NCBI GenBank assembly: GCA_013288235.1
Contig: JABDCF010000011.1
Coordinates: forward strand, 1 to 58,295
From: Bacteroidota bacterium
GTDB taxonomy: Bacteria; Bacteroidota; Bacteroidia; Sphingobacteriales; Sphingobacteriaceae
Direction of reading: 5' to 3'
DNA: 58,295 bases
Under the pieces are notes generated by a model that worked only from the letters and a program-made list of their open reading frames with translations, had not been told where the DNA came from and searched no databases. Shown here one piece after another: positions 2,454-46,300 of the stretch; within the stretch, counting starts at the first letter, position 1, and each line of letters begins with the position of its first letter. Both the position numbers and the translations under genes were made by a program.

Positions 2454-3614
2454 ATGAAACAGGTAACACTTTTATTAGCCGGGCTTTTATTGGGCTTTAC
2501 ATTTTCGGCCAACGGGTATGCCCCTGCTATAATAGCCCGGCCAATCGCGCCTATTGATTCCCTTACAAAAAAAGCCTTGATCAAAGCGTTAGATGCCTTT
2601 CTGCTGCAAAAAGAAAACGATAACGATAAAAATAAATTCGTGTTAAAAGAAGACCGGCTGGCAACCTACGCGCTGCTTGATGAGATGAAGGGGGTTGAAA
2701 AAAATCCAAAACTTAAAGATATTGGTTATTACAAAGCTTACCTCACCAATATTGTCGATTTAAACAATAATAGTTTTTTAATACAGCTTTCGTACATCGG
2801 CATTAATGAAAAAGCGGCCGCACTAAGGGCAAGCTTCAGGTTTATGGCAAAAAAGGCAGATACGCAATTTTACTTTTTTTCGACCTTAAAGCAAAACACC
2901 CTCGCCTGGCGGTCAAAAAAAATAAACAATATAAACTTCCACTTTAAAGATACGCTCGACCTGGCGACGGCTAAGGATTATCTTAAGACAGTAAACTCAT
3001 TTGATAAACGATTAAAATTACCGCCCTTGCCTTTCGAATTTTATTTTTGTGATAATTTCCCCGATGCACTGCAAATTTTAGGTGTGGATTATAAATCAAA
3101 CCTGAACGGGATAAAATATGATGACATTACATCGCACGACAATAATACCACCCTTGAATTGGATGGCGGCTACACCGACACAAAACGCTTTGATGCGCAT
3201 GATTTGTGGCACGATAGGCTGCACAGGGTAATGTCGGTAGATGTGATCAACCGCCCGGTTGATGAAGGCTGCGCTTACCTGTATGGCGGCAGCTGGGGCA
3301 TTAGCTGGCCCGATATATTGGCAACATTTAAAAAATATGCGGCAGACCACCCCAATGCCGACTGGCAAAAACTATACACCGATAATACAAACTTAACCGA
3401 TGGTGATAAATCCCTGAAAATAGCTTATGCAATAAACGCGCTGATCGTTCAAAAAATTGAGAAAGAAAAAGGCTTCGACCCGGTAATGGTATTACTAAGC
3501 TGCGGCAAACACGAGCCCGGCGATGATAATTATTTTACCGCACTGGAAAAAGTAACCGGGATAACAAAGATAGGGTTTAATAGTGCGGTTTGGGGGTTGA
3601 TTAAAGCGGACTAA
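2454..3614 (+). CDS. secreted protein with metalloprotease-like HDLWHDRLH motif
   Basis: 386 aa with a signal peptide (MKQVTLLLAGLLLGFTFSANGYA). I do not recognise a named family. Around residues 249-257 the sequence HDLWHDRLH resembles a His-x3-His zinc site, and about 10 residues later DEGCAYLYGGSWG offers a Glu in the place where a gluzincin-like peptidase carries its third ligand. HEXXH itself is absent (HDLWH), so peptidase activity is only an inference; a catalytically dead relative is equally possible. It probably acts in the periplasm. The stop codon (3612-3614) lies inside the first arm of the hairpin at 3611-3701. Confidence 0.7.
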   Translation: MKQVTLLLAGLLLGFTFSANGYAPAIIARPIAPIDSLTKKALIKALDAFLLQKENDNDKNKFVLKEDRLATYALLDEMKGVEKNPKLKDIGYYKAYLTNIVDLNNNSFLIQLSYIGINEKAAALRASFRFMAKKADTQFYFFSTLKQNTLAWRSKKINNINFHFKDTLDLATAKDYLKTVNSFDKRLKLPPLPFEFYFCDNFPDALQILGVDYKSNLNGIKYDDITSHDNNTTLELDGGYTDTKRFDAHDLWHDRLHRVMSVDVINRPVDEGCAYLYGGSWGISWPDILATFKKYAADHPNADWQKLYTDNTNLTDGDKSLKIAYAINALIVQKIEKEKGFDPVMVLLSCGKHEPGDDNYFTALEKVTGITKIGFNSAVWGLIKAD

Positions 3615-3701
3615 GATTTTTAGGATTGAAGGATGTCGGGATTTTTAACCGATTAAATGTTACATTCTAATCCTATCATCTTAAAATCCTACAAATCTTA
3701 G
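3611..3701. repeat. word-repeat hairpin, left flank of GxxExxY gene
   Basis: Arm 3611-3643 (ctaagatttttaggattg...) pairs with 3669-3701 (...aatcctacaaatcttag) over about 33 bp with a few mismatches. It holds the stop codons of two convergent genes: the secreted protein and the ancestral end of the GxxExxY gene. A related hairpin is at 4099-4263. Confidence 0.85.
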
Positions 3702-4095
3702 TCTCTTTTATAATCGGCATTTTCGGGATGCTTTACATTAAATACCCTTTTATATTCGAGGCTTTTACTTCCAAAATTTATGAGCAATCCAATTGGTAAG
3801 TTATATGCTTTTAATAATTGATAGCCTGGGCGAGATGTGAATCGTCAAGGCGTGAGAAAGCTTTTAATTCGACCATAATTTTATCTTCTACAAAAAAGTC
3901 GACCCTTCTTGTGCCAATGTCAATTCCATCATAATATATCGTCATTACCATTTCTCTTTTAAATTTTAATCCTTGTTTTCCCATTTCAATTGCCGGTGCC
4001 TTTTGATAAATAACTTCCGGGAAACCGCAACCAAGAGTGTTATGAACTTTCATTGCACAGCCAATAATTTTGTGGGTAATATCTTCGTGTAGCAT
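3698..4095 (-). pseudogene. GxxExxY family protein, frameshifted near its 3' end
   Basis: The open frame from ATG 4095 gives 94 aa containing the family motif (CGFPEVIYQ, that is GxxExxY) and a PD-(D/E)xK nuclease-like core (RRVDFFVEDKIMVELKA). It stops after LAQAINY at 3811. One base later in phase, the downstream sequence continues as YLKAYNLPIGLLINFGSKS and on to a stop at 3698-3700. The intact copy at 33393-33821 has LAQALNYLEAYKLDTGLLLNFG at this place, so a single T has been lost from the run around 3811-3814. The last strands of the fold would be missing. The family's role is not established. The whole gene lies between two related hairpins. Confidence 0.8.
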
Positions 4096-4098
4096 GGA

Positions 4099-4263
4099 CT
4101 AAGAATTTAGGATTGAAGGATGACAGGATTTTTAACGGGCTAAATATATTAAACTAATCCTATAAATTATATATCAAGGTTTATAAGGTTAAATAATGAG
4201 AGGATTTCGATGGAATAAATATAGTAAACTGATCCTATCATCTTAAAATCCTACAAATCTTAG
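4099..4263. repeat. word-repeat hairpin, right flank of GxxExxY gene
   Basis: Arm 4099-4130 (ctaagaatttaggattgaag...) pairs with 4231-4263 (...aaatcctacaaatcttag). Both arms are close direct copies of the arms at 3611-3643 and 3669-3701. The loop holds extra AT-rich sequence, including another partial copy (ctaatcctataaatt). Confidence 0.8.
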
Positions 4264-4296
4264 TACCTTTGCTATCCTCAAATTGGAATTAGAACG

Positions 4297-18101: not shown

Positions 18102-18674
18102 ATGAAGATAGGTTTACTATTCGGTTCATTTAATCCAATACATGTTGGCCATTTAATTATAGCAAATTATATGGCCAATTATACCGCGCTTGATAAAGTG
18201 TGGTTGGTGGTATCGCCCCAAAACCCGCTAAAAAAATATGGCGACCTTATAAATACTTACGACCGCCTTGAAATGGCCAAGCTGGCTACCGACAACTCTA
18301 CCAAACTTGAGGTTAGCGACGTTGAACTGAAGCTGCCCCAGCCGTCCTACACCATCGATACCCTTACCCATTTAAAAGAAAAATACCCGCAGCATGAATT
18401 TGCGCTTATTATGGGATCGGATAACCTGGTATCATTACCCAAATGGAAAAATTATAAATTGATTTTAAGGGATTATCAAATATACGTTTACCCCCGCCCT
18501 GGTTATGAAAATACCGAGCTGGCAACCCATCCATCTGTAACCATAACCATGACACCGATGATGGAACTGTCTGCAACTTTCATCCGCAATTCCATCGCGC
18601 AGAAAAAAAATGTGCAATATTTTGTGCCGGATGTGGTTTTGGAATTTATTGATGCGAAGCATCTTTACAGGTAG
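18102..18674 (+). CDS. nadD: nicotinate-nucleotide adenylyltransferase
   Basis: 190 aa. It converts nicotinate mononucleotide and ATP to deamido-NAD. Nucleotidyltransferase signature GLLFGSFNPIHVGHL at the N-terminus, and the C-terminal SATFIRNSIAQKK corresponds to the ISxTxIR motif. It acts in NAD synthesis together with nadA and nadB at 42.6-45.6 kb. The stop codon is in the arm of the next hairpin. Confidence 0.96.
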   Translation: MKIGLLFGSFNPIHVGHLIIANYMANYTALDKVWLVVSPQNPLKKYGDLINTYDRLEMAKLATDNSTKLEVSDVELKLPQPSYTIDTLTHLKEKYPQHEFALIMGSDNLVSLPKWKNYKLILRDYQIYVYPRPGYENTELATHPSVTITMTPMMELSATFIRNSIAQKKNVQYFVPDVVLEFIDAKHLYR

Positions 18675-18760
18675 TTGATTGAGTTGACTAAGTGAGCAGT
18701 TGATTAAGTTAACGAATTGCTAACTCAATCAACCCAATCTAACTTAATCAACTACTCACT
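18671..18760. repeat. word-repeat hairpin between nadD and miaE (TTGATTGAG word)
   Basis: 18691-18711 pairs with 18740-18760 (20 of 21 bases), with further partial pairing on both sides. The nadD stop (18672-18674) begins the first arm. Related words recur at 30205-30252, 32080-32126 and 57370-57450. Confidence 0.85.
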
Positions 18761-21828: not shown

Positions 21829-22545
21829 ATGAAAGAACTAAGCAAGGATTGGTTTATTGAAGGCTCGATAGATTTTGAGTATAAAAAGTATATCCTGCTC
21901 GATTATTTGCAGGAAATAAACCGCTATTTTGATAAAAGCAAACTCTACCCAAACCTTAGCGACCTGATATTTCATTTCAACAACCTTTTGTATTTTAAAA
22001 AGAATAAAACCATGCTGCAGCAGGCTTTTCCGCAGCGCCTAACCCAGGCAGATATTGAAGCCGTAAGGCTTACTTACCAAAAAATAGTTGACGACGATAG
22101 TTCGATGAAGGAAATAGAAGCAATTATTGCTTACGCCATGCAAAAAATGGACCCGGCCATACAAACCGGTAAGGAAATTTATGATTTTGTTGAAAGTTGC
22201 CTCAATATCGATCCGGTTGGGATTGTGCCCTTAATGCCCTATTATGGCTATTTCTCGCTACGCAACGGAAAAGAAAAAACGCATGGCATTTATGAATACC
22301 AGGTAACCATATTTGAAAACAAGGACGATAAATACCGTGGCATCAATATCAGCTTTTTAGAAACTTACGAAGAGAGTATCGTTAAAACTCCGGAAGCCAT
22401 AAAACTCGACTTGATACGCCGCAACAAGTACATGCCAAATCCAGCTGTTTATTACGTGCATAGTGATATAACCTTTCCGCTGGAACAAACCTTATTGCCC
22501 GTAGCTAAAAGGTGTTTGGTGAAGTATATTTCAATGGCCGCGTGA
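21829..22545 (+). CDS. conserved protein of unknown function
   Basis: 238 aa, no signal peptide or membrane segment. It begins KELSKDWFIEGSIDFEYKKY, has a helical middle, and then a beta-rich part (YGYFSLRNGKEKTHGIYEYQ). I know no domain name for it; it looks like a cytoplasmic Bacteroidota protein. It is divergent from the RsmI-like gene. Its TGA stop (22543-22545) is the first triplet of a perfect inverted repeat. Confidence 0.75.
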   Translation: MKELSKDWFIEGSIDFEYKKYILLDYLQEINRYFDKSKLYPNLSDLIFHFNNLLYFKKNKTMLQQAFPQRLTQADIEAVRLTYQKIVDDDSSMKEIEAIIAYAMQKMDPAIQTGKEIYDFVESCLNIDPVGIVPLMPYYGYFSLRNGKEKTHGIYEYQVTIFENKDDKYRGINISFLETYEESIVKTPEAIKLDLIRRNKYMPNPAVYYVHSDITFPLEQTLLPVAKRCLVKYISMAA

Positions 22546-22635
22546 CACGATTTTTAGGATTTTAATCGATTTATACGATTTTATTTGCAAGGCTCCTTAT
22601 CCTGTAAATCCCTCAAAATCCTAAAAATCGTGTCA
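22543..22635. repeat. exact 21-bp inverted repeat carrying both convergent stop codons
   Basis: 22543-22563 (tgacacgatttttaggattt and one t) is the exact reverse complement of 22615-22635. Each arm begins with the TGA stop of the gene entering it. It probably acts as a two-way terminator hairpin, with a loop of 51 bases. Confidence 0.95.
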
Positions 22636-32663: not shown

Positions 32664-33302
32664 TTACTTTTTTCTGATGACCAGCAAACCGTCACGAACA
32701 GGGAGGATCAGTTTATCAACCCTTTCATCGGCAGCAATTTGGTCATTTAGTTTGCGGATCATCTGTGTATCGGCATCGTTTTCTGGGCCATACACCTTTC
32801 CTTTCCACAAAACATTATCAATTATTATTAATCCTCCGGACCTTATTTTATTAAATACAAGTTGAAAGTAAGTATAATTATTTTTCTTATCAGCATCTAT
32901 AAACGCCAAATCGAAATCGTTATACGGCAAACCTGCTATAATATGTTCAGCTTCGCCAAAATGAAGCTTTATCTTTTTTTCCACACTTGTTAGTCTAAAG
33001 TGTGATTTCAGCATTTCCTCCATTTCCCGGTTAACCTCAATGGTATGGATCTCGCCGTCATCGCCCAGGCCCTCGGCCAGGCAAATCGTGGCATAACCGG
33101 TAAATGTCCCTATTTCGAGGATTCGTTTTGGCTGTATTAACTTACTTAAAAAACTAAGCACCCTACCCTGGTAATGCCCCGAAAGCATGTGCGGCTTTAG
33201 TACCTTTAAATAGGTTTCCCTGCTGATGGTTTGCAGCGCTTCCGGTTCTGCGTCGCAATGGTCATCAAGGTACGCTTGCAGGATATCGGGTAGAATTTCC
33301 AT
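32664..33302 (-). CDS. O-methyltransferase (class I, SAM-dependent)
   Basis: 212 aa, the length of the Methyltransf_3 (catechol/caffeoyl-CoA-type) family. Motif I ILEIGTFTGYATICLAEGL, then IHTIEVNREME, FDLAFIDADKKNNYTYFQLV, and GGLIIIDNVLWKGKV. Substrate unknown. The left arm of the 39-bp inverted repeat begins 12 bp upstream of its start. Confidence 0.93.
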   Translation of the reverse strand: MEILPDILQAYLDDHCDAEPEALQTISRETYLKVLKPHMLSGHYQGRVLSFLSKLIQPKRILEIGTFTGYATICLAEGLGDDGEIHTIEVNREMEEMLKSHFRLTSVEKKIKLHFGEAEHIIAGLPYNDFDLAFIDADKKNNYTYFQLVFNKIRSGGLIIIDNVLWKGKVYGPENDADTQMIRKLNDQIAADERVDKLILPVRDGLLVIRKK

Positions 33303-33313
33303 GGCGCAAAGAT

Positions 33314-33352
33314 AACCGTTGATTTTAATGATTTAGGGATTTCGTTGATTTT
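33314..33352. repeat. left arm of 39-bp inverted repeat around GxxExxY gene
   Basis: Begins aaccgttgattttaatgatt. Its exact reverse complement is at 33947-33985, and a 5-mismatch copy of that arm is at 33854-33892. Confidence 0.97.
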
Positions 33353-33392
33353 TTGGAACTTGTATGTTGAATAGCTGATTTATCTTATTGAT

Positions 33393-33821
33393 TTACTGAG
33401 CCTTATTTCTATTTTCCTTGTTTTTCAATTTGTACTCATTGGTTATTCTTTTAACTTCAAGGCTTTTTGCACCAAAGTTTAGTAATAAGCCGGTGTCTAA
33501 TTTATACGCTTCCAGGTAGTTGAGGGCTTGTGCAAGATGAACATCATCCAATTTTGATAGTGCTTTAAGTTCAACCATTATTAAATCGTTAACCAGGAAA
33601 TCAACCCGACGAGAGCCGACGTTAATCCCTTCGAAATAAATTTCCATTTCTAATTCCCGTCGAAACTTTAGCCCTTGGTTTTCCATCGCGATAGCAAAAC
33701 ACTTCTGATAGATCACTTCCTGGAAACCATTCCCCATGACGCTATGTACTTTCATGGCGCAGCCAATTATAAGCCCGGTTATATCAGAATATTTATAGGC
33801 ATCATTTACAAATTCTTTCAT
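33393..33821 (-). CDS. GxxExxY family protein (PD-(D/E)xK nuclease-like)
   Basis: 142 aa from ATG 33821 (MKEFVNDAYKYSDITGLIIG); the frame could extend to 33851 but that part lies in repeat sequence. Motif GFQEVIYQK (GxxExxY) and nuclease-like core RRVDFLVNDLIMVELKALSK with Asp, Glu and Lys in place. The C-terminal LLLNFGAKSLEVKRI is intact, unlike the copy at 3698. Function is not established. It lies on the ruvX strand, enclosed by an exact inverted repeat; its 5' end is partly duplicated upstream (33898-33931). Confidence 0.9.
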   Translation of the reverse strand: MKEFVNDAYKYSDITGLIIGCAMKVHSVMGNGFQEVIYQKCFAIAMENQGLKFRRELEMEIYFEGINVGSRRVDFLVNDLIMVELKALSKLDDVHLAQALNYLEAYKLDTGLLLNFGAKSLEVKRITNEYKLKNKENRNKAQ

Positions 33822-33985
33822 ACAATCAAAATCAATAAAAAATTCACCCAATCAAAATCAACGAAATCTTATAATCATTAAAATCAACGGTTCCGCTCAT
33901 TTACAGATTCTCTCATACAATCCAAATTATTCTAAAAATGCAAATCAAAATCAACGAAATCCCTAAATCATTAAAATCAACGGTT
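33802..33985. repeat. tandem duplication of about 93 bp covering the GxxExxY start
   Basis: The unit 33802-33894 (atcatttacaaattctttca ... aaaatcaacggttcc) recurs, diverged, at about 33896-33987. The second copy still has an ATG (33919) and reads MRESVNERNR then stop, a remnant of the GxxExxY N-terminus. Each unit ends with a copy of the right arm (33854-33892 and 33947-33985). Confidence 0.85.
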
Positions 33986-34390
33986 CCCTTCCATCCACGA
34001 CTGTAAAAGAATTGTAGCCGATATCGTATCCACCAACTCCTTATTTTGGCGGTGTTTTTTATTCATCCCGCTTTGGGCTATGGTTGCCGATGCCATTTTT
34101 GAGGTAAAGCGTTCATCCAGCATCTCAATGGGGATCTCCGGGAAAGTTTTTTTTAGCAGGTTTACAAACCCTTTAACATGTATGGCCGATTGGGACGGCG
34201 TATTGTCCATTTGTTTAGGTTCGCCCACTACAAAGCGTTCTACGGGTTCGGTCTGCAGGTATTTTTTTAGATAATCGATGATTTTAAGAGGATGGATGGT
34301 TTCCAGCCCGGTGGCGATGATCTGCATCGGATCGGTAACCGCAATGCCAATGCGTTTGGTACCGTAATCGAAGGCCATGATGCGGGACAT
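33977..34390 (-). CDS. ruvX: putative pre-16S rRNA nuclease / Holliday junction resolvase-like RuvX
   Basis: 137 aa. RNase H-like fold: [20 protein letters not shown] with the first catalytic Asp, [24 protein letters not shown] and a C-terminal [15 protein letters not shown] with the last Asp. The family (YqgF) trims the 5' end of 16S rRNA and was earlier called a resolvase. The final Asn-Arg-stop is written by the right arm of the inverted repeat at 33947-33985. Confidence 0.95.
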
Positions 34391-38021: not shown

Positions 38022-38033
38022 CCGCTTTTCATC

Positions 38034-38085
38034 CTTCAATCCCTAAATCCTTTAAATCTTAGTCCTTTCGGACTTCCTCTATTTT
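38034..38085. repeat. single arms of two word families
   Basis: atccttcaatccctaaatcc with aaatcttagtc copies the arm of the 3611-4263 hairpins, and ctttcggacttcc copies the arm of 16366-16396. No partner arm is nearby. Confidence 0.6.
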
Positions 38086-46174: not shown

Positions 46175-46189
46175 GCGATGATATTTTTT

Positions 46190-46300
46190 AACACAGACAA
46201 CACTAAGAATGCACGAAGAACACAGAGAAATAAAATTGACGTTATTAAAGCTTGGTGTACTTTGTGCCTCCTTTGCTCCTTTGTGGTAAAATTAAAATTG
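46190..46300. repeat. CACAGAG / CTTTGTG word repeats
   Basis: acacagacaacactaagaat with gaacacagagaaat, then cttggtgtactttgtgcctc with tttgctcctttgtggt. The two halves are loosely complementary. This text-like repeat follows the gene at 45668. Confidence 0.5.

Follow-up and report, generated by a model that had tools for sequence, protein, structure and literature searches.

The DNA analysed here (the window) is a stretch of 58,295 nucleotides from a bacterium of the Sphingobacteriaceae (Bacteroidota). It carries an intact gene of the GxxExxY family, which starts with an ATG at 33821, ends with a stop at 33393-33395 and encodes 142 amino acids. The original prediction placed this gene between ruvX and an O-methyltransferase gene, enclosed by an exact inverted repeat with an extra copy close by. 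Assignment of the neighbours bears out the placement, and the repeat is exact: 33314-33352 is the reverse complement of 33947-33985 at 39 of 39 bases, and the extra copy of the arm, at 33854-33892, matches at 35 of 39. The locus and the related features of the window are as follows:

33393..33821, minus strand: GxxExxY gene, 142 amino acids, predicted PD-(D/E)XK (Cas4/RecB-like) nuclease (from TIGR04256, PF13366, residues and structure model)
33947..33990, minus strand: ruvX-side array arm with four GATT cores spaced 9-8-9, holding the ruvX stop codon at 33977-33979
33850..33894, minus strand: second copy of the ruvX-side arm (35/39 over the 39-mer, 9-8-9), from a tandem duplication
33309..33352, plus strand: array arm next to the O-methyltransferase gene, inverted and exact over 39 nt
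33977..34390, minus strand: ruvX, flanking host gene, its last codons and stop written by the arm
32664..33302, minus strand: O-methyltransferase gene, flanking host gene
3751..4098, minus strand: GxxExxY gene with internal stops (decayed), flanked by inverted arrays of the GGATT type at ~3603-3713 and ~4160-4270
22543..22635, no strand: gene-less inverted array pair of the CACGATTTTTAGGATT type (ends judged by eye)
46188..46289, no strand: degenerate pair of inverted CACRRAG-type arrays with no gene (ends approximate)

Extended without gaps, the inverted arms of the window gene match over 44 nt at 95%. The third arm arose when ~93 bp were duplicated in tandem (33802-33894 versus 33897-33987), an event that also copied the first codons of the GxxExxY gene. 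The ruvX-side arm encodes the last residues of ruvX and also writes its stop codon, as predicted, since the TGA at 33977-33979 falls within the arm. In each of the three arms, four GATT cores follow one another as a direct array with the same spacings of 9-8-9, and in gene orientation the window arm reads CCGTTGATTTTAATGATTTAGGGATTTCGTTGATT. As single-stranded DNA the 39-mer arm has an MFE of 0, and not one of 200 shuffles folds less well, which rules out a hairpin formed by a single arm. The predicted "minimal palindrome-bounded element" is apt as a bounded element, because empty sites, occupied sites and gene-less array pairs all exist (see below), but the palindrome is the pair of arms and not the single arm. 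The upstream flank of the gene, aligned with its reverse-complemented downstream flank, gave a local score of 41, whereas the scores of 46 other ORFs in the window had a median of 10 and peaked at 18. No known RNA family was found at the site in Rfam. Further gene-less GATT/AATC arrays lie in the window at 18671-18755 and ~38030-38070 (extents judged by eye).

In profile searches the window protein scored 130.2 bits against TIGR04256 (cut-off 35) and 126.5 bits against PF13366 (cut-off 22), and no domain beyond these two was found at E 0.001. Alignments of 23 and 41 sequences showed E, Y, D, E-x-K, H and Q-x-x-x-Y to be invariant or nearly so, and both the G-x-x-E-x-x-Y motif and the PD-(D/E)XK residues are intact in the window protein. 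The best match of its modelled fold (pLDDT 88) in the PDB is the Cas4 protein SSO0001; DNA nucleases of Cas4/RecB type lead the fold matches, and some of the matches are RNA splicing endonucleases. The window protein has the RecB-like nuclease core expected of Cas4. We predict that the GxxExxY protein is a Cas4/RecB-like nuclease with its catalytic residues intact. A sequence search for a solved relative returned just a terminase match at chance level (E 1.3). Assignment to a defence system was rejected, PADLOC giving weak Cas4 matches alone (E 0.012 and 0.027).

The GxxExxY family is very common, with at least 7,999 relatives for one query, several gene copies per genome and several copies that have decayed. 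We rejected the idea of a phage or plasmid gene: one query protein of the GPGLLE type had no match among 50,697 phage records, and its eight matches among 72,556 plasmid records all fell in records called non-mobilizable. A search of viral contigs by one peptide pattern gave one confirmed GxxExxY locus. Some members occur as fusions. At L205 (G129:C1:70300-75500) and L206 (G238:C17:472800-477800), an in-frame fusion joins GxxExxY to what we take to be a RecQ helicase; the L205 fusion lies just downstream of a presumed carB, and its linker is translated from the array itself. The fused open frames measure 883-896 amino acids in four genomes of one genus (G102, G114, G129 and G238). A 297-aa frame at L208 (G030:C50) presumably joins a PaaI-like thioesterase to a GxxExxY domain. 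At L181, L189, L193 and L200, and less clearly at L183, the gene or its arrays begin near the end of what we take to be the C-terminus of a type I restriction HsdS protein (LLPKLMSGE...); these five loci come from genomes of different families.

We read loci from the window's own genome and its relatives, together with 80 named loci from many phyla (all counted) and 28 loci from other Bacteroidota. The same picture recurred, namely inverted arrays of 4-7 bp cores, ~8-10 bp apart, on both sides of the gene. Arrays of the GPGLLE type consist of repeated [TTAA]CCAC(A/G)(A/G)AG.., and the record titles place this type in Bacteroidota, Chloroflexota, Planctomycetota, Acidobacteria, Verrucomicrobia, Cyanobacteria, Proteobacteria and others. 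Those of the GNGFQE type read TCTGAACC.TGATT.....GATT.. or GAATT. At the 107 loci (of 115) that had both flanks, the median flank inverted score was 22, compared with a median of 10 both for 2,140 letter shuffles and for the 46 window ORFs. Strict patterns, applied to 143 loci (94 GPGLLE, 42 GNGFQE-type and 7 of other or broken motif), found 155 right-way class matches in 274 adjacent segments (38 wrong-way), against 4 right-way in 257 control segments ~1 kb away (2 wrong-way).

The core of the array is cognate to the protein. GPGLLE proteins had CACRRAG arrays at 68 of 94 loci and GATT arrays at 0, and GNGFQE-type proteins had GATT arrays at 27 of 42 loci and CACRRAG at 0; with these strict patterns, no match between one clade and the core of the other was found in either orientation at the 143 loci. 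Arrays stood on both sides of the gene at 46 loci for CACRRAG and 15 for GATT, and on one side only at L099, L133 and L160. The strict regular expressions found no right-way array at 46 of the 143 loci. When 26 of these were aligned singly, about twenty appeared by eye to have other cores (CGCAGAG, CACATAG, ACAGGATT, TTACGAAT, ATTACACCGATT and similar), and nothing convincing was seen at L109, L114, L135, L144, L148 and L154. The window's own genome holds a single GPGLLE gene, with CACAAAG arrays, alongside GNGFQE-type genes with GATT, GGATT or GAATT.

Protein identity and array composition were also correlated in a Mantel test of the 113 loci (of 143) with an inverted block score of at least 15 (r 0.50, reached in 0 of 500 permutations). 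The partial r after correction for background composition was again 0.50, and among pairs below 60% identity r was 0.43. Most of this correlation lies between clades. Within GPGLLE it was 0.155 (0/500), and within the GNGFQE-type proteins (clade A) across the phylum there was no significant match (r 0.04, 157/500). The genus alone (29 loci) gave r 0.70 (0/1000) and its clade A 0.42 (0/1000), with no correlation among the nine clade-A genes of the genus that lie away from ruvX (807/1000). Lag-9 autocorrelation of whole flanks (0.31 versus 0.29) gave too diluted a signal. Spacing tends to be uniform within each array subfamily of a genome: all 13 arrays listed for G323 have gaps of (1,2), and elsewhere (arrays of G366, G259 and G314 among those examined) the classes (1,1), (2,2) and (3,3) dominate, with mixed (2,3) spacing in G366 and G199.

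Gene and array are associated at the level of genomes as well. Among 296 Bacteroidota genomes, 149 match the window protein and 58 hold a triple CACRRAG array; the gene is present in 56 of these 58 and the array in 2 of the 147 gene-less genomes (Fisher p 3e-17), a figure to be read with the non-independence of the genomes in mind, one family of 65 having the gene in only 5. With that family removed, 56 of 57 array genomes have the gene, and arrays occur in 56 of 144 genomes with the gene versus 1 of 87 without (p 7e-13). A reversed control of the pattern was present in 5 of the 296 genomes, and dropping the two that hold both pattern and control left p at 2e-16. Within the genus the gene is found in 48 of 61 genomes and TGAACCNTGATT arrays in 36 of 61, in up to 69 copies; the reversed control was 0 in all 61. 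Here the presence of TGAACCNTGATT arrays was not linked to that of any GxxExxY gene (30/48 versus 6/13, p 0.35), and one genome, G013, has 33 arrays and no GxxExxY gene. Copy number was higher where the gene at the ruvX site (or L035) falls outside the L044-type subclade, at 15-52 copies with one at 0 (n=9) versus 0-11 (n=6; p 0.011), a grouping chosen after the protein tree had been seen.

The ruvX/O-methyltransferase site turns over within the genus. ruvX was matched in 57 of the 61 genomes, and 51 sites were read. A GxxExxY gene occupies 14 of them, in the window orientation at eight and reversed at six. At least 12 are empty by eye, with 2-131 bp between ruvX and the O-methyltransferase gene and no array. 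One site has a gene-less array pair (L048), one a single arm (L047) and two have fragments (L046 and L078); the remainder hold other genes or other sequence, or have no O-methyltransferase gene in reach (by eye). The original prediction read the gene as an insertion, a reading at odds with occupation of this position in all relatives, and the empty sites are in its favour. Its expectation of empty sites carrying one hairpin was right in that gene-free sites exist but too narrow, since some of these carry nothing and others one arm or a pair.

The two orientations interleave on the protein tree, where well-supported branches force at least three changes, and six of the 14 ruvX-site proteins form one supported group. 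At the 11 of 14 gene-bearing ruvX sites with both arms anchored, the arms match one another better within a locus (0.733) than in random pairing (0.599; 3/10000). The closest pair of genomes read (G013/G047) yielded no clean insertion with a target duplication: of five candidate places one is present in both, and the differences at the remaining four are replacements or nestings, not simple inserts. In this genus the same intergenic hot spots also contain a second hairpin repeat (CATTGCGAGG.ACGAAGCAATC and its relatives), as at L061, L078, L219 and others.

Palindromic array pairs without a gene are present in many genomes. Nine elements from two close relatives folded as DNA hairpins with z from -1.4 to -7.3 (nine of ten fetched pairs, the nested L224 being omitted and L227 and L228 representing one site in both relatives); in these hairpins the cores pair and many linkers remain unpaired. 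Elements are nested in one another at L224, L216 and L218, and the array type at a given intergenic site can differ between the two relatives. In the one-contig record G323 we read 16 inward pairs of at least 18. The arms were identical in 9 of the 16 pairs, compared with 2 of 240 comparisons between elements, and differed by a mean of 1.3 within versus 3.7 between elements, a value that 0 of 10,000 random pairings matched; in the other 7 of 16 the matching was imperfect. Mirror symmetry extended beyond the array at positions 6-15 (0.50 versus 0.37; 6/10000) and into the loop (0.53 versus 0.34; 1/10000; 12 loops of at least 20 nt). The loops of different gene-less elements are unrelated, so these pairs were not copied from a single complete master element. 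Arm matching and flank symmetry could reflect either selection for the hairpin or the copying of one arm onto the other; we favour copying, because the matched bases vary from element to element. By eye, gene-less pairs usually have unlike first linkers in their two arms (TTTAG versus TGCCT), while those of gene-bearing cassettes are more often equal, and gene-less pairs may combine one purine-type with one pyrimidine-type arm.

The arrays tend to lie behind genes. At loci with an upstream array, the stop codon of an upstream ORF of at least 80 codons fell within -25 to +45 of the first core in 47 of 79 cases, compared with 9.3% of random upstream positions, a control that is lenient because it includes coding interiors. 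Likewise, 11 of 16 gene-less pairs lie at the 3' ends of genes. The outer array edges, TTAACC and CTGAACC, contain a stop codon.

The results presented above suggest a model in which the gene and its arrays probably make up one self-spreading DNA system, each being half of it, because the family carries matching arrays in many bacterial groups. On balance we think it probable that the window's GxxExxY protein acts on arrays of this GATT kind, serving as the enzyme of selfish repeats whose gene-less pairs would be passengers. As the motor of the system we infer recognition, cutting and fold-back repair. The protein would recognise its own core and spacing. Paired arms may form an extruded hairpin or cruciform, or may fold while the DNA is single-stranded at replication, and the predicted nuclease would cut there. 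Fold-back or template-switch copying during repair could then produce identical arms and extend the palindrome into the flanks, and the same copying might flip or replace the cassette and leave new pairs behind. Gene-bearing copies would simply be pairs that carry the enzyme in their loop. Since the array edges contain a stop codon, entry at the 3' end of a gene would be harmless, which would explain where arrays survive. In its most general form the model is more tentative, and we put it at slightly below an even chance: GxxExxY proteins would be the enzymes of phylum-spanning selfish palindromes, a stand-alone Cas4-like nuclease reading arrays with one core per 8-10 bp, with a core and spacing specific to each clade, and cutting their hairpin form, and fold-back repair spreading and perfecting the palindromes. 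This would give one explanation to a large group of intergenic repeats taken for 'junk' (TTAACCACRGAG..., TCTGAACC.TGATT...).

Several other explanations deserve consideration. The arrays might be made or kept by host terminators or another transposase, with GxxExxY genes merely surviving inside them. Array pairs without a gene are indeed numerous, G013 has its 33 arrays and no gene, and the 3' ends at which arrays lie, for both gene loci and gene-less pairs, are where terminator hairpins would be expected. However, such a passive gene does not account for an array core that tracks the protein clade across phyla and within one genome, nor for triple CACRRAG arrays being almost confined to gene-bearing genomes, and we regard this explanation as unlikely, if the most credible of the alternatives. 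We also doubt, a little more strongly, that the nuclease cuts gene-less pairs in the manner of a homing enzyme, repair copying the gene into the loop and the arrays spreading passively. That the gene occupies the loop of a pair found elsewhere without it, that it is present, absent or reversed at one site, and that its orientations are mixed on the protein tree would all fit. Yet the gene leaves the presumed site uninterrupted, both arms being whole, so that they would remain targets, and neither the multiplication of array copies nor the unrelated loops would be explained.

The target might instead be RNA, if the arrays are transcribed into hairpins at 3' ends and GxxExxY acts on these as a ribonuclease or regulator. 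Their position just behind stop codons, the hairpins formed by pairs and the RNA splicing endonucleases among the fold matches are compatible with this. Against it stand the lack of an Rfam family at the site, best fold matches that are DNA nucleases of the Cas4/RecB type, inverted arms ~0.6 kb apart at gene-bearing loci and copy numbers that reach dozens; we consider an RNA target improbable. Least credible to us is a function in the service of the host, in which a palindrome-clearing or hairpin-repair nuclease would have its own sites as reservoirs or phase-variation switches. Opposite cassette orientations at one site and intact catalytic residues would be in keeping with such a role, but the patchy presence of the gene (48/61 genomes in the genus, 149/296 in the phylum) and the several decayed copies argue against it.

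The preferred reading, a selfish repeat system with GxxExxY as its enzyme, would have several consequences. The link to a matching repeat gives a common, uncharacterised family a testable function and explains a class of intergenic repeats. REP elements and their RAYT enzymes pose the question of how dispersed palindromes and an enzyme can persist together over long times, each maintaining the other; if the nuclease alone drives the repeats, an unrelated enzyme, GxxExxY, would supply a second answer. A compact nuclease that prefers a certain core and spacing could also have practical use. In a literature search that covered few subscription papers or preprints, no published link of GxxExxY to arrays was found, mentions of the family being incidental; nothing was found on PDDEXK_3, and the array strings occurred in unrelated work alone.

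Finally, we compared the system with known ones. The predicted protein resembles Cas4 and RecB in its fold and its E, D, E-x-K, Q-x-x-x-Y pattern, with a weak match to Cas4 profiles. However, Cas4 uses four cysteines for its iron-sulphur cluster, and the window protein, at 142 amino acids, has two, too few for such a cluster. PD-(D/E)XK homing endonucleases exist (e.g. I-Ssp6803I), and with these the family shares a small stand-alone nuclease that is present or absent at one site; unlike them, it has no intron or intein context at the window site, and the presumed site is whole on both sides of the gene. MITEs and insertion sequences likewise have inverted ends, enzyme-bearing and enzyme-less copies, and nesting, but the only gene of the GxxExxY cassette has no transposase domain, target duplication was not seen and the loops of enzyme-less copies are mutually unrelated. 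The nearest known system in organisation is REP/REPIN-RAYT (the REPtron). In both systems small extragenic repeats occur in many copies as inverted, hairpin-forming doublets, a small enzyme gene lies beside its cognate repeat type, enzyme and repeat evolve together and many copies are non-autonomous. REP doublets with TnpA-REP, co-evolution of enzyme and repeat, and non-autonomous copies are described in the accessible text of PMC3116915 and PMC8266576. By its parts GxxExxY is not a member: RAYT is an HUH (Y1) tyrosine transposase and GxxExxY a predicted PD-(D/E)XK protein, the GxxExxY arm is a direct array of spaced cores that does not fold alone, and the gene lies inside the inverted pair. 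RAYTs are moreover single-copy, going by the available part of PMC3116915, in contrast to the several GxxExxY copies per genome. We rate the system as categorically new, because neither its enzyme class nor its repeat architecture fits a mobile-element family that we could name, although by organisation alone it could count as a variant of the REP/RAYT kind.
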